From Planctomyces sp. SH-PL62 (GTDB lineage Bacteria; Planctomycetota; Planctomycetia; Isosphaerales; Isosphaeraceae), in assembly GCF_001610895.1 (NCBI RefSeq), contig NZ_CP011273.1, positions 1,798,001-1,862,000 on the forward strand: a DNA stretch of 64,000 nucleotides, written 5' to 3'. Below, in pieces: positions 28,127-37,224 of the stretch (position 1 is the first letter of the stretch; every line of letters starts with the position of its first letter). A program made the translations under genes and the position numbers. The notes beneath the pieces were generated by a model. That model worked only from the letters and a program-made list of their open reading frames with translations. It was not told the origin of the DNA and made no database searches.

Positions 28127-29350
28127 TCACGTCCGGGCGAACTGGGATTCGCGGGGCGACTCGTAGCGGACGGCCAGATGGGGGGTGTCGAGCGGCTCCT
28201 GGCGGTTCTGCCGGGAGTCGAGGCAGCTTTCCAGCATGCCGCAGACGAGCATGGTCCGCTCGACGGGATACGCGGCGCGGCCGGTCTCGATCATGCGGGC
28301 GACCTTGTCCATCAACTGCGCCGAGTAGGCGACGTTGGGATTGGGCGGGAGCAGGAATTGCATCGAAAGCGGGTCGGGCCGCCCCTGGACCTTCACGGCC
28401 AGGTTGTAGTCGGCCAGGACGCCGTTGAGCATCAGGAGCGTGGCGCGGGTTCCGTCCGCGTACTCGATGAAGTACGCGGCCGGGTTCTGGGCGATGAGCG
28501 CGATCTCATCCCCCTCGCCGAGCGCCTGGGGGCGGCCGTCCTGGACCGAGAGGCCCTGGAGCGAGTCCGTCCGGGAGAGCGCGGCCCCCAGCAGCTCGCG
28601 CGACCATCGGCCGGCGTCGGCCGCCTTCCAGACGGCGTCGCCCTCGATCATCTGGACGCGGCGGACGCCCGTCTCGCCGCCGCGACGGCGCTCCAGCACG
28701 GACTGCATCGCTTCGAGCGCGTGATAATCCATCGGGTCCGAGCCGCCGACGCCGACCATCAGGGCGTCCTCGACGACCGCGCCGTAGGGCAGGTCGACCG
28801 AGGGGAGCCGCCAGGTGACGGGTAGCGACGAGCCGGCCAGGAACGGAAACTTCAGGCGTTTGGAGGCGTCGACCATCGCCTTCGCCTTGTCGAAGCTGTA
28901 CGACAGGTGCTTGTCGTTGAAGACCGGGACGGAGCGGCCGTCGGCCTCGAAGACGTCGGCCGCCTGCTTGAAGAACTCGTAGCGGGGGTAGAGGATCTGC
29001 CCCTTCTCGTTGCGCGGATAGTCGCCGTGCTCGCCGATGATCAGGACGGCGTCGACGGCCAGCTTGTCGCCCCCCTGGCGGAGCGCCTCGGGGATGGTCG
29101 GGTAGACCTTGAACCCGAAGGTCGAGGCCCGCTCGGCGCTCTGGTCGTCGTCCGGCTTCTGGTCGACGTAGAGCGAGACGACGTCGATGGCCGGCTTCTT
29201 CCAGGCCCCGTCGATCGGGTAGCCGACGAGGAAGCGGTCGCCCATGTGCTGGGCGTGCGACAGGTATTTCCAGACGGTCGTGACGATCGCCAGCCGCTTG
29301 CGGGCGGGGGGCGATTGCGGAGCGTCGTCGATCGGCTTGCGGCTTCGCAT
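28127..29350 (-). CDS. Unrecognised protein, cytosolic member of a tandem paralogue pair
   Basis: A 407-residue protein with no signal peptide. It is clearly homologous over its length to the next gene upstream (29360-30700): both share VVSLYVDQ, KVYPTI-EAL, IGEHGDY, YPRYEFFKQ, VPVFNDKHLS, FPFLAGSSLP-TWR, ERRRGGETGV and PYPVERT. The order of a strand ending in GEHGDY, then VFNDKHLSYSFDKAKAMVDASK, then FLAGSS mirrors the region of Gfo/Idh/MocA proteins around EKP, but the N-terminal G-x-G-x-x-G and the EKP lysine are not in place (DKH instead). I infer a distant, altered relative of that family. The two genes are 9 bases apart and must be one transcription unit. Confidence 0.75.
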   Translation of the reverse strand: MRSRKPIDDAPQSPPARKRLAIVTTVWKYLSHAQHMGDRFLVGYPIDGAWKKPAIDVVSLYVDQKPDDDQSAERASTFGFKVYPTIPEALRQGGDKLAVDAVLIIGEHGDYPRNEKGQILYPRYEFFKQAADVFEADGRSVPVFNDKHLSYSFDKAKAMVDASKRLKFPFLAGSSLPVTWRLPSVDLPYGAVVEDALMVGVGGSDPMDYHALEAMQSVLERRRGGETGVRRVQMIEGDAVWKAADAGRWSRELLGAALSRTDSLQGLSVQDGRPQALGEGDEIALIAQNPAAYFIEYADGTRATLLMLNGVLADYNLAVKVQGRPDPLSMQFLLPPNPNVAYSAQLMDKVARMIETGRAAYPVERTMLVCGMLESCLDSRQNRQEPLDTPHLAVRYESPRESQFART

Positions 29351-29359
29351 GGCTCGGAC

Positions 29360-30700
29360 TCAGCTCCTCATATATTGCGATTCGCGGGGGGCTTGATAGA
29401 CGATCGACGCCAGGTCGGGGGTCTCGGCCCGACCGCGCTTCTCGGCCAGGAGGTCGACGGCGGTGCAAAGCACGCCCGAGGTCAGCAACGTCCGCTCGAC
29501 GGGGTAGGGCGCCCGGCCGGTGAGGAACATGGCCTCGATGTGGTTCGCCAGCGGGCTGAAGAAGTTCGGCAAAGTCTGATTCGGCGAGATCCCGCAGAGG
29601 TACAGCTGCGTCGAGCGGATCGCCGGATCGTCCTCCAGCTTGAGCGCGACCGTGAAATCGGCCACCAGTCCCGACATCATGAACAGGCTGCCGACCAGGC
29701 CGTCGTTGTAGTGCAGGCGATAGAGCAGGGGGTCCGGGACGAGCTTCGCCGCCTGCTCCAGGTTCGGGAAGGCGTTGCCGTAGCCCGGCATCGGCGAGGT
29801 CAGCCGGAAGCTCCGGCAGAGGCAGGCGTCGAACAGGGCCTTCGTCCGGGCCGAGCCCCCCGAAGCGGGGTCGAGCGCCTTCCAGACGTCGGCCCCGCGC
29901 AGGGCCTCGACGGCCTTCACGCCGGTCTCGCCGCCGCGACGACGCTCGACGAAGCACTGGAGCGATTCGAGGCCGTGGAAATCATAGCTGTCCACGCCGC
30001 CGTAGCCGACGCAGACGGCCTCCTCGATCGGGGCGTCGGGGGGCGTCTCGTACTCGGGGATGCGCCAGGTGAGCGGCAGCGACGAGCCCGCCAGGAACGG
30101 GAAGTTGAGTTCGCGGGAAGTCGCGACCATCTCCTTCGCCCAGTCCCAGTTCCACGACAGGTGCTTGTCGTTGAAGACCGGGACGGAGCGGCCCGACTTG
30201 CGGAAGACGTCGACCGTCTGCTTGAAGAACTCGTACCGTGGGTAGTGCATGCGGCCGCGATCGTCGCGGAGATAGTCGCCGTGCTCGCCGATCAGGGCCA
30301 CGCCGTCGACGTCGAGCGTCGGGCCACCCCGGGTCAGGGCCTCGGCGATCGTGGGGTAGACCTTCAGGCCCGGATGGCGCGCGACGCGTTCGTCGGTCAG
30401 ATCGCCCTTGGGCCGCTGGTCGACGTAGAGCGAGACGACGTCGAGCGCCGGCCGGTGGTGTCCCCCTTGCCAGCCGTAACCGTCCATGAATCGGTCGACG
30501 ATCCCCTGGCCGTGGGAAGTCTTGTAGTAGCAGGTGACGATAGCGGCGATCCTCGGCCGGGGCTTCGGCGTCGTCGCGACCGCCGGCTGGGCCTCGGCCC
30601 GCCCGCGGGCGGCCCCGACGGCGCCGGCGGCCATCGCCCCCATCGCGGCGCGGCGCGTCCAGGCGAAGCCGGGCGCGGGATCGGGTTCTTTCACGTCCAT
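29360..30700 (-). CDS. Unrecognised protein, Tat-leader member of a tandem paralogue pair
   Basis: A 446-residue paralogue of the gene at 28127-29350. Unlike its partner it starts with a twin-arginine leader (WTRRAAMGAMAAGAVGAARG), so it should be exported folded, perhaps with a cofactor. The shared core runs from IAAIVTCYYK (about residue 51) to the C-terminus (YQAPRESQYMRS). Motifs conserved in both copies include GEHGDY, YPRYEFFKQ, VFNDKHLSW and FLAGSSLPLTWR. The ATG 30700 start is supported by the leader. Duplicate genes, one exported and one not, next to an Asp-box protein suggest a matched pair acting on related substrates in two compartments; this is inference. No database family is assigned. 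Confidence 0.78.
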   Translation of the reverse strand: MDVKEPDPAPGFAWTRRAAMGAMAAGAVGAARGRAEAQPAVATTPKPRPRIAAIVTCYYKTSHGQGIVDRFMDGYGWQGGHHRPALDVVSLYVDQRPKGDLTDERVARHPGLKVYPTIAEALTRGGPTLDVDGVALIGEHGDYLRDDRGRMHYPRYEFFKQTVDVFRKSGRSVPVFNDKHLSWNWDWAKEMVATSRELNFPFLAGSSLPLTWRIPEYETPPDAPIEEAVCVGYGGVDSYDFHGLESLQCFVERRRGGETGVKAVEALRGADVWKALDPASGGSARTKALFDACLCRSFRLTSPMPGYGNAFPNLEQAAKLVPDPLLYRLHYNDGLVGSLFMMSGLVADFTVALKLEDDPAIRSTQLYLCGISPNQTLPNFFSPLANHIEAMFLTGRAPYPVERTLLTSGVLCTAVDLLAEKRGRAETPDLASIVYQAPRESQYMRS

Positions 30701-33737: not shown

Positions 33738-33956
33738 GGCGGTCTCCCAGAACGGCCCCGAGGCCTCCAGCCCAGCGACGGGCCCGGCGGCGGGGGCCAT
33801 CCTAACAGCCCTGAGGGCGCTCTTGAACCCGGTCGGCCTGACGCCTGAAGGGGGGCGAAGGAGTCGCGAGGGGGCGGGACAATCGTTAAGCTGGATCGAC
33901 CGAGGGCCGCCGATGAGACGGCCTTCGCCAAAACAATGATGAATTGGAGGTCGCTG

Positions 33957-35351
33957 ATGCAGCGTCGTGATGCGAATACGCGCCGAGGGTTCCTGAAGAC
34001 GGCGGCGGCGGCCTCGACGGCCGTGACGATCCTGGCCCGCAACCCGGAGACCGAGGCGGCCGCCTCGGCGCTCGCCAAGGCCGGTCCCAACGACAAGGTG
34101 CGGATCGCGACGATCGGCATGGGGATCATCGGCTTCATCGACACCGACTGCGCGCTGCAGGCGCCGGGCGTCGAGCTGGTCGCCGCGGCCGACCTCTACG
34201 AAGGCCGTCGGACGCGGGTCAAGGAAAAGTACGGCGACCACGTCTCGACCCACGTCGACTATCGCGAGATCCTCGACCGCAAGGACGTCGACGCGGTCTT
34301 GCTCTGCGTCCCCGACCACTGGCACGCCCAGATGTCGGTCGACGCTATGAAGGCCGGCAAGGCCGTCTACTGCGAGAAGCCGATGGTCCAGTCGCTGGCC
34401 GAGGGGCCGGACGTCATCAAGGTCCAGCAGGAGACCAAGGCCGTCTTCCAGGTCGGCAGCCAGTTCGCCAGCTCGATCGTCTTCGAGAAGCTCCACGAGA
34501 TGATCGCCGCCGGCGCGATCGGCAAGCTGAACGTGGTCGAGGCCCGATACAACCGCAACTCCTCGCTCGGAGCCTGGCAGTACACCCTGCCGCTGGACGC
34601 CTCGCCCGCGACCGTCGACTGGGATCGGTTCCTGGGCAAGGCCCCCAAGCGGCCGTTCGACGCCACCCGCTTCTTCCGCTGGCGGAACTACCAGGACTAC
34701 GGCACGGCCGTCGCCGGCGACCTGTTCGTCCACCTGCTGACCGCCATCCACCGCGCCACCGACTCGCAGGGCCCCAACAAGGTCGCCGCGATGGGCGGGC
34801 TCCGCTACTGGGACGACGGCCGCGACGTCTACGACGTCATCCTCAGCCTGCTCGACTATCCGGCCGTCGAGGCCCATCCCGCCTTCACCGTCTCGCTCCA
34901 GTGCGACTTCGAAGACGGCGGCGGAGACGCCACCTCGTTCCGGTTCGTGGGCGACGAAGGCGTGATCTCCACCGACCTCGCCTCGCTCAAGCTGGAGCGT
35001 ACCGGCATCTCCTGGCCGACCCCGGAACAGGAGCTCAAGGGGTATAACTCCGTCCAGACCTTCTCCAAGGCTCAGCAGGACGCGATCGCCGCCAAGCTCG
35101 CCTCCGAGCCGAGGAAGGGTCGCAAGCCGGCCCCCTACGAAGGGGCCCAGAGCTTCCAGCCCCCGGCGGGGTACGACCCCCGCCTCGACCACTTCGTCAA
35201 GTTCTTCACCTCGGTCCGCCAGGGCGAGCCGGTCTACGAGGACGCCGTCTTCGGCTACCGCGCCGCCGCCCCGGCCCTCCTCTGCAACACCAGCCTCTAT
35301 GAGAGCAAGCTCATCGGCTGGGACCCGATCAAGATGCAGGTCACGGCCTGA
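33957..35351 (+). CDS. Tat-exported Gfo/Idh/MocA family oxidoreductase
   Basis: A 464-residue oxidoreductase, the second Gfo/Idh/MocA enzyme here. ATG 33957 is chosen because TGGAGG (33945-33950) lies six bases upstream; two earlier ATGs (33936, 33939) lack one. A twin-arginine leader (TRRGFLKTAAAASTAVTIL) is followed by the Rossmann motif IATIGMGIIGF, VPDHWHAQMSVDAMKAGKAVYCEKPMVQSL with the EKP lysine, and the C-terminal sheet domain (GDLFVHLLTAIHRAT). It differs strongly from the enzyme at 4968. The probable substrate is a sugar or sugar acid. A perfect 17-bp hairpin follows its stop codon and may end the transcript. Confidence 0.9.
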   Translation: MQRRDANTRRGFLKTAAAASTAVTILARNPETEAAASALAKAGPNDKVRIATIGMGIIGFIDTDCALQAPGVELVAAADLYEGRRTRVKEKYGDHVSTHVDYREILDRKDVDAVLLCVPDHWHAQMSVDAMKAGKAVYCEKPMVQSLAEGPDVIKVQQETKAVFQVGSQFASSIVFEKLHEMIAAGAIGKLNVVEARYNRNSSLGAWQYTLPLDASPATVDWDRFLGKAPKRPFDATRFFRWRNYQDYGTAVAGDLFVHLLTAIHRATDSQGPNKVAAMGGLRYWDDGRDVYDVILSLLDYPAVEAHPAFTVSLQCDFEDGGGDATSFRFVGDEGVISTDLASLKLERTGISWPTPEQELKGYNSVQTFSKAQQDAIAAKLASEPRKGRKPAPYEGAQSFQPPAGYDPRLDHFVKFFTSVRQGEPVYEDAVFGYRAAAPALLCNTSLYESKLIGWDPIKMQVTA

Positions 35352-35763: not shown

Positions 35764-37053
35764 TCACCGGCCCCGGCGGGCGCGGAGGCTCTCGGGGAAC
35801 AGGTCTTCCTGAACGATGTTCCCCTGGTCGTCGAACGGGATTGGAAGATAGTCGGAGTCGAAGGCCAGCCCGGGATGGGCCTCGACTTCCCCGGCGAGCG
35901 GACTCGTGACCCAGAGCGTGGTGAGTTCGAGGGTGTTGGGAATCAAGGCGAGCTTCGCCTCGGCCGGGTCGATCCGCCAGCAGGTGTCCAGGCAGGCGGC
36001 GATCACGTCGCGGTCGGTCGGCAGGGCCAGCGGGACTCGGGCGCGGGCCAGGAAGTTGCTGGTGAAGCTGTTCACGCGCATCGGCGTCGGGTCGATCGCC
36101 CGCACCAGCCGCTCCGTGGTCAGGTCCGCGAACCCGATCCCCAGCGCATTGCCGCGCGATTCCTCGGAGACGTCGAGCACGGCCAGGCGGGTGACGACCG
36201 GCGCGGGGTGGTCGCGCATGGTTTCGACGCGGAGGCGGCCGATGACGTTCGGGTCCATCCCGGTGCCGCTGTAATTCTTCCCCAGCTCGCCGACGATCAG
36301 CACGTCCAGCTCCGGGAACGGCAGCCCCGGCATCAAGGCGCGGGCCTCCGTAAGCAGGGCGGGCTCGACCTCCAGGATCTCCTCGGGCTCGACCGCGACG
36401 ATCCGAGCGACGCGATCGGCGGCGTTCTCGATGATCGCCAGCCCGAGCGCGACGGGCGTTCGCTTCAGGAGGAACGCGCCAACTTCCGGGAGCAGCCTGA
36501 TCAGGCCGGGGAGGCCCAGCTTGTGGACCTGCGCAGCCCCCTCGCGCTTGCCCAGGCCGACGGCCAGCATCTTCAGCAGGCCGCTCTCATACGAGCCCGT
36601 GAACGAGGTGTGGGGCTTGACGCGGTTCAGGAGGATGACGCCGTCAGCGTCGAACGCGTTGCGGTCGAAGTGGATCGGCAGGCCGAAGGCGTTGGTCCCC
36701 AGGACGACGGTGTCCATCTCGCAGCGGACGGGGCAGCCGACGCTTCGTTCGGTGACGCCCAGCTCGGCCAGGAGCGCCCGCTGACCTTCGGCTGTCCCGC
36801 CGCCGTGGCTCCCCATCGCCGCGACGACGAAGGGGTGGAAGCCGACCGAGCGCACGGCCGTCGCGACGGCCCGGACGATCTCGGGCAACCCGGCGATCCC
36901 CCGACTGCCGACCGTGATCGCGACCTGGCCGCCGGCCGGCACCCGGGCGACGAGGCCGCTGGCCACCACGGCGCGAGCCGCGGCGTCGGCCGGGTCGGGG
37001 AGCTCGGGCTGGTCGAAGGTCCGTCGGACCCTGGCGATGGTGGGCGTGTTCAT
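35764..37053 (-). CDS. LarA-like (DUF2088) lactate-racemase-domain protein
   Basis: A 429-residue cytoplasmic protein with the N-terminal domain of the nickel-dependent lactate racemase family (VAITVGSRGI; MGSHGGGTAEGQ; VILLNRVKPHTSFTGSYESGLLKM). LarA isomerises lactate with a nickel-pincer cofactor bound by a Lys and several His. Here GSHGGG and KPHT hold histidines in matching areas, but the full ligand set cannot be confirmed by eye, and many DUF2088 proteins act on other hydroxy acids. ATG 37053 is the family start; the ORF extends 24 codons further upstream. No larB/larC/larE cofactor genes are in the window. It stands alone between two spacers. Confidence 0.75.
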   Translation of the reverse strand: MNTPTIARVRRTFDQPELPDPADAAARAVVASGLVARVPAGGQVAITVGSRGIAGLPEIVRAVATAVRSVGFHPFVVAAMGSHGGGTAEGQRALLAELGVTERSVGCPVRCEMDTVVLGTNAFGLPIHFDRNAFDADGVILLNRVKPHTSFTGSYESGLLKMLAVGLGKREGAAQVHKLGLPGLIRLLPEVGAFLLKRTPVALGLAIIENAADRVARIVAVEPEEILEVEPALLTEARALMPGLPFPELDVLIVGELGKNYSGTGMDPNVIGRLRVETMRDHPAPVVTRLAVLDVSEESRGNALGIGFADLTTERLVRAIDPTPMRVNSFTSNFLARARVPLALPTDRDVIAACLDTCWRIDPAEAKLALIPNTLELTTLWVTSPLAGEVEAHPGLAFDSDYLPIPFDDQGNIVQEDLFPESLRARRGR

Positions 37054-37224
37054 GATGTTGCGACCCGGCTTCGCGGGGATCTCCCGCGGATTGCCGACAC
37101 ACCTCGCTCGACACCACCACCTCAAGGGGGGGCGGGAGACGGCCTTCGGCCGGAACTCGGTGGAGTCGAATGAGGAGTCTCGGATTTCCTCATTGTAAGG
37201 GATCGGGGTCCGGTTCGAAACGCC

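Follow-up and report, generated by a model that had tools for sequence, protein, structure and literature searches.

The tandem gene pair at the locus

The window, that is, the whole 64,000-nucleotide stretch of the Planctomyces sp. SH-PL62 contig NZ_CP011273.1 (positions 1,798,001 to 1,862,000) analysed here, carries two adjacent family members on its minus strand. Gene A (29360-30700, minus strand) encodes subunit A, a protein of 446 aa with a Tat-type signal and a predicted Gfo/Idh-type fold, and gene B (28127-29350, minus strand) encodes subunit B, a protein of 407 aa in which no export signal was seen. Nine bases separate the stop of A from the start of B, and the B frame opens only past the A stop. 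The two proteins are 46% identical over 407 aligned columns (E = 1e-118), and the blocks GEHGDY, YPRYEFFKQ, VFNDKHLS and FLAGSS are all present in both, in agreement with a preliminary description of the locus as a tandem paralogous pair with common blocks.

The Tat-type signal of A spans residues 1-39 (30584..30700, minus strand), with the arginine pair at residues 16-17 (TRR start) followed by an Ala/Gly/Met-rich stretch. The turn after beta1, the site of G-x-G-x-x-G in Gfo/Idh enzymes, reads TCYYKTSH (residues 56-63; 30512..30535, minus strand), its last residue being H63. Conservation further marks E139-H140 (30281..30286, minus strand), in a loop past the strand after VDGV, while alignment places D178-K179-H180 (30161..30169, minus strand) at the EKP position of Gfo/Idh enzymes, and conservation together with the structural model places H242 (29975..29977, minus strand) in a helix of the C-terminal domain. 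According to the family alignment, the counterparts in B, likewise on the minus strand, are H32-x-x-H35 (29246..29257; aligned with A positions 63 and 66), H108 (29027..29029; A H140), D146-K147-H148 (28907..28915; A D178-K179-H180) and H210 (28721..28723; A H242). A third, distant copy of the family occurs in the same genome at G000:C1:4282619-4283905; a second family member was not found in this 4.3 kb locus (L003).

Family assignment and predicted fold

Searches of A and B against Pfam and NCBIfam returned zero families at E values up to 1. The 29 relatives forming alignment A1, searched at E values up to 5, matched eight families, just signal-peptide and scattered weak ones, among which PF01408 and its C-terminal domain families were absent. 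No characterised homologue was found in the PDB sequence, Pfam and NCBIfam searches, and no report on the A/B family appeared among the results listed from the open-access literature, which covers few subscription journals. Two antibody light chains matched by A alone in the PDB sequence search (E 0.47 and 0.92) were discarded. The preliminary description had called the family unassigned, and in Pfam and NCBIfam this is the case.

Structure prediction and fold searches recovered the Gfo/Idh fold, and an unrelated fold did not appear. The AlphaFold2 model of window A, obtained from a 53-row alignment, reached a pLDDT of 89.6 and a pTM of 0.86, with residues 1-34 under a pLDDT of 50, and displays the predicted two-domain fold, a Rossmann N-terminal domain and an alpha/beta C-terminal domain. 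VIA-align superposed model range 46-429 on GenD2 (6nor_C) with Z 25.1 and rmsd 3.7 over 286 residues, and we take all 50 listed matches to be Gfo/Idh/MocA-type enzymes, as far as their titles tell. Foldseek, run with the model of a fused chain, likewise placed GenD2 on top, together with other enzymes of the Gfo/Idh fold.

Profile comparisons point the same way. The A1 profile gave weak PDB matches to 6z3b and 6z3c (E 0.008) and to 6o15, the E values ranging from 0.008 to 0.29, and on 6z3b/6z3c FNDKH lies in register with FCEKP. Comparison by hhalign with 30 Gfo/Idh proteins encoded in the window organism's genome yielded a probability of 94.8 (112 columns, in the N-terminal half), with D178-K179-H180 falling on E-K-P; forced into global mode, the probability was 97.3, with the C-terminal half aligning poorly. 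The Gfo/Idh descent proposed in the preliminary description is thus backed by predicted fold, profile matches and hhalign alike. By predicted fold, which is well supported, and by descent, the A/B family belongs to the Gfo/Idh superfamily, whereas by profile and motifs it stands outside; we regard it as a variant built on the Gfo/Idh scaffold that lacks the defining motifs.

The cofactor turn and the EKP region

At the beta1-alpha1 turn, none of the 151 family rows has the pattern G-x-G-x-x-[G/A], which 25 of 30 control proteins of PF01408 type from this genome do have. The loop noted as missing in the window pair is missing throughout the alignment. In its place stands T-x-Y-x-x-x-S-H, with H-x-x-H in most members. 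A G-x-G-x-x-G string does occur elsewhere in 49 of the 71 A proteins (GYGWQG, residues 74-79, in window A); hhalign aligned it with the cofactor turn, an assignment that was rejected, the model placing GYGWQG after helix 1.

The E-K-P motif itself is absent from the window proteins. The replacement of EKP by DKH suggested earlier is confirmed by alignment, lysine falling on lysine, and this lysine is kept in all 71 A rows and in 69 of the 71 B rows. At position D94, where beta2 ends, 69 of the 71 A proteins carry D or E and 69 of the 71 B proteins carry D. An acid at this position is the adenosine-ribose ligand in NAD enzymes, and with the acid conserved NAD binding is conceivable.

Retention of the whole Gfo/Idh fold, of the acid at position 94 and of the EKP-region lysine is what would be expected if A and B formed an NAD(P)-dependent oxidoreductase heterodimer, in which the unusual turn binds the dinucleotide and the histidines serve as catalytic residues on the substrate side. 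Moreover, the strict glycine pattern is also missing in five of the 30 ordinary PF01408 control proteins, so that the pattern alone is not decisive. However, the glycine turn is missing from every family row, a conserved glycine-free motif ending in H63 takes its place, and H63 disappears along with the other histidines in the B subunits of Acidobacteriaceae (see below), which ties the turn to that site. We consider the NAD(P)-dependent reading unlikely.

A near-invariant set of histidines

H63, H140, H180 and H242 are invariant across the 29 rows of A1. In the wider alignment the complete quartet is present in 64 of the 71 A proteins, 59 of the 71 B proteins and all nine remaining rows, the exceptions including N at 180 in the B proteins of L069, L072 and L074 and P at 63 in the A protein of L086. 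Most rows also have His at position 66 (65 of 71 for A, 64 of 71 for B); window A has G there. In both subunits, conservation also reaches at least 95% at E139, Y143, K179, S206-S207, R213, D240, E252-R253-R254 and D333, among other positions. The B rows of L054, L063, L088, L100 and L102 (fragments, frameshifts and decayed copies) were kept out of the conservation reference sets.

This pattern bears on the idea of a non-catalytic binding or sensing pair that retained the fold without its chemistry. The absence of the usual cofactor motif would suit such a pair, as would the fact that neither a named family nor a solved close relative was found, but E139, H140, K179, R213 and H242 rank among the most conserved residues in both subunits across several phyla, and a purely non-catalytic role appears very improbable.

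Joint loss of the histidines is seen in six B rows from Acidobacteriaceae (L084, L085, L090, L092, L094 and L105), in which 14 of 141 otherwise conserved columns are altered, including all five conserved histidines (nominal p 4.6e-6, the six rows being one clade with one history). D178 and Y153 are altered in the same rows, and K179 is unchanged. The corresponding A partners retain H63, H140 and H242 and carry Glu in place of H180, His to Glu being a usual swap for a metal ligand. In these A proteins 10 of 116 conserved columns are altered, among them H180, R155 (to His) and D237, indicating that the A site is modified as well. An independent loss of the His set is seen in the B protein of L088, from another lineage, with 41 conserved columns altered in total. 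We read the His set as one functional site that may be dispensable in B as long as A keeps a version of it. The Acidobacteriaceae B proteins also contain extra residues between about positions 70 and 150, as seen in the sequence of L085.

A single cleft of Gfo/Idh enzymes is faced by the turns that follow beta1, beta4 and beta5 and by a histidine from the C-terminal domain, and H242 is assumed as a candidate equivalent of the inositol dehydrogenase catalytic His. On this topology, H63, H140, H180 and H242 could meet in a single cleft, and a metal site replacing the dinucleotide would then be a simple reading. Formation of a metal site by the His set is nevertheless proposed tentatively, as possible rather than probable.

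Pairing, fusion and distribution of the family

Relatives were collected by a scan of contigs, in which at least 502 of 597 candidate stretches were confirmed as family members. The best 80 loci were kept and, having been chosen by likeness to the query, yield counts that favour pairs. Pairs occur well beyond the window: in 68 of these 80 loci the two genes are separate and on the same strand and in three they are fused, the others comprising one locus with three copies, one with A alone (L096) and seven with single genes. The fusions (L082, L089 and L098, titled Chloroflexi, Caldilineaceae and Litorilinea) join A and B in one frame of 847-909 codons from stop to stop. For L089, a prediction based on 52 aligned rows, in 17 of which the A/B stop is treated as a residue, gave a pLDDT of 91.1 and a pTM of 0.90 over 810 residues, a value otherwise hard to reach, which suggests that the two halves are confidently placed against each other. 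Single A rows in the fused alignment (A5) were checked and sit on the A half.

In a tree of the 151 rows, built by a quick method with SH-aLRT support only and a midpoint root, the 71 A proteins fall on one side of one branch and the 71 B proteins on one side of another, with support 100, and the seven single genes make up a third group, next to B. Identities of A and of B correlate across 63 loci (rho 0.78; L054, L063, L088, L100 and L102 omitted), partly because of shared species history. A and B are two old orthologous groups kept in the fixed order A then B and not recent copies, and their pairing is well supported. Taken as a unit of two subunits, A and B probably form a heterodimer or a multiple of one.

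Several loci depart from the simple pair. The single genes of the third clade (L104 and L107-L112) have a Tat-type start in 7/7 cases, and on these loci no partner was seen except a 58-bit fragment on the opposite strand at the end of L104. L095 holds three family genes in a row, each with a Tat-type start. At L011, L013 and L018, a good family member has beside it a relative so diverged or decayed that its best stretches score 27 to 190 bits, perhaps a partner on its way out.

Evenly drawn genomes seldom have the family, and many of those that do lack an adjacent partner. Of 392 such genomes in the window's phylum, 34 have it, with adjacent members in 8 of the 34; two of these adjacent cases (G133 and G320) have a weak partner. 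In Acidobacteriota, the phylum of L035, it was found in 7 of 149 genomes at E values up to 1e-30, with adjacency in three of the seven. The genomes behind sampled loci contain the pair in 7/7 cases and further members in six. Record titles of the relatives name Planctomycetota, Acidobacteria, Poribacteria, Latescibacterota, Chloroflexi, Pedosphaera and others.

Export signals and compartment

The distribution of Tat signals varies across the family. Among 69 pairs, the signal is on A only in 19, on B only in 20, on both in 8 and on neither in 22, so that just one partner bears the signal in 39 of the 69 pairs, as A does in the window, the remaining 30 pairs being arranged otherwise. Rule-based counts (A only/B only/both/neither) were 20/20/7/22 and 19/21/7/22, and were then corrected by eye, a signal being accepted for L083 B, L086 A and L085 B and none for L053 A and L048 B. 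The 69 pairs include partial B genes (L054, L097, L100 and L102) and two wider gene gaps, of 2.1 kb at L045 and 0.8 kb at L054. None of the three fused A-B chains has a Tat signal. Within related Acidobacteriota, the signal-bearing partner differs and the pair persists.

In the preliminary description, A and B were tentatively seen as matched copies serving the two sides of the membrane, an exported A in the periplasm and a cytosolic B. The signal on A alone, in the window and in 19 of the 69 pairs, would fit this view, but the comparison does not support it: the 20 pairs with B only, 8 with both and 22 with neither, the fusion of the two genes in three of 80 loci and the status of A and B as old, separate ortholog groups all speak against it. 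Two proteins with separate working sites would both have to swap sides at once whenever the signal changes partner, whereas for a single complex one signal on either subunit suffices; the changing signal and the fusions therefore point to one complex in one compartment. The two-compartment arrangement is most likely wrong, and we give it very little weight.

Export of a complex through the signal of one partner has precedents: hydrogenase-2 (HybO/HybC) and PaoABC are described in PMC10924467 and PMC4273604 as being exported by Tat in this way. What bears on whether A and B would fold as a complex before export are the natural fusions and the pTM of the L089 chain (predicted, without PAE). In the window organism co-export of A and B is likely, judging from the distribution of signals.

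Genomic neighbourhood

Neighbouring genes were called by a simple longest-ORF rule, and 94 of the 153 nearest neighbours were scanned against families. In the 25 of 117 families listed, the leading matches were Peptidase M19 (11), creatininase (4), DUF362 (3) and PhyH (3), the remaining listed families having one or two matches each. Neighbours differ from pair to pair: judging by the loci, M19 dipeptidases, creatininases and Amidohydro_3 proteins occur mostly in Acidobacteriota and PhyH mostly in Poribacteria. The neighbourhood was dropped as a guide to function or substrate, leaving a mild hint of a link to amide or peptide catabolism in Acidobacteriota. In 12 loci (L034, L039, L059, L066, L071, L078, L084, L085, L090, L092, L094 and L105), one kind of gene, an M19 dipeptidase by eye, is found no more than 6 kb from the pair.

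Next after the pair in the window comes a gene for a BNR_4 protein, and a facing gene has a weak SGNH-type match below the cut-off. At L033, the nearest relative, the gene next downstream of the pair matched no Pfam family at 1e-8, and BNR_4 was not seen. Further along the window, 33936-35351 (plus strand) encodes a Tat-type Gfo/Idh protein with a PF01408 match, nearest to the BT_2158 glycoside 3-dehydrogenase model and far below its cut-off, and 35764-37125 (minus strand) encodes a nickel-pincer-cofactor-dependent isomerase (NCBIfam group 22, NF052515; 498.6 bits, cut-off 400). The genome as a whole has 47 PF01408 matches.

Proposed function

Collectively, A and B are probably the two halves of an undescribed enzyme, and we lean, by a modest degree, towards a co-exported heterodimeric and possibly metal-dependent enzyme on a Gfo/Idh scaffold. 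A and B would stem from an old duplication and have since been passed down together, with A preceding B. In the planctomycete the dimer would fold in the cytoplasm and be exported whole by Tat, with B riding on the signal of A; in other bacteria B would bear the signal for A, or the dimer would remain cytoplasmic. With the NAD turn replaced, H63 would join H140, H180 (of DKH) and H242 in the NAD/substrate cleft, together with the retained K179, and the resulting site could be that of a metal-dependent, NAD-independent hydrolase, lyase or isomerase. A small polar substrate, sugar- or amide-like, is suggested with low confidence. The most far-reaching version, a new family in which the NAD site became a His metal site, the paralogs form an obligate heterodimer, export takes place in the folded state and a single Tat signal has moved between subunits, remains speculative and, in its entirety, somewhat doubtful.

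Enzymes with the Gfo/Idh fold are widespread in sugar metabolism, and the fold is usually read as that of an NAD oxidoreductase. If the proposal is correct, a conserved two-gene family without the NAD turn would represent re-use of this scaffold in another way, in a family that has no model in the searched versions of Pfam and NCBIfam despite its presence in several phyla. In addition, a Tat signal carried by different partners in different lineages would provide natural test cases for hitchhiker export.

Comparison with known systems

The A/B proteins share the whole predicted two-domain fold with Gfo/Idh/MocA dehydrogenases such as GenD2 (6nor), inositol dehydrogenase (4mie/3nt2), YjhC (6o15) and RgNanOx (6z3b), and have the EKP-region lysine and the acid in register. 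They differ from these enzymes in having no G-x-G-x-x-G turn, DKH for EKP and no PF01408 match, and in possessing a conserved EHGxYPxNxxGQxxYPRYE segment, the near-fixed His set and two co-inherited subunits. The fold is likewise shared with NAD-dependent glycoside hydrolases, represented by a sulfoquinovosidase (8qc6; Z 23.7 to 8qc6_A), which according to the structure title holds NAD+, whereas A and B are without the cofactor turn. DgpA (9m3d, 7xr9 and 7xre) also resembles A in fold, with Z 23.5 for 9m3d_A. We take DgpA to be an NAD enzyme working with separate non-Gfo subunits, whereas in the present pair both A and B are Gfo-fold subunits. With regard to export, the putatively co-exported pair resembles the hitchhiker systems HybO/HybC and PaoABC, as described in PMC10924467 and PMC4273604, in that the signal is on one partner only; unlike in those systems, the A/B partners are paralogs, and the one bearing the signal varies by lineage.
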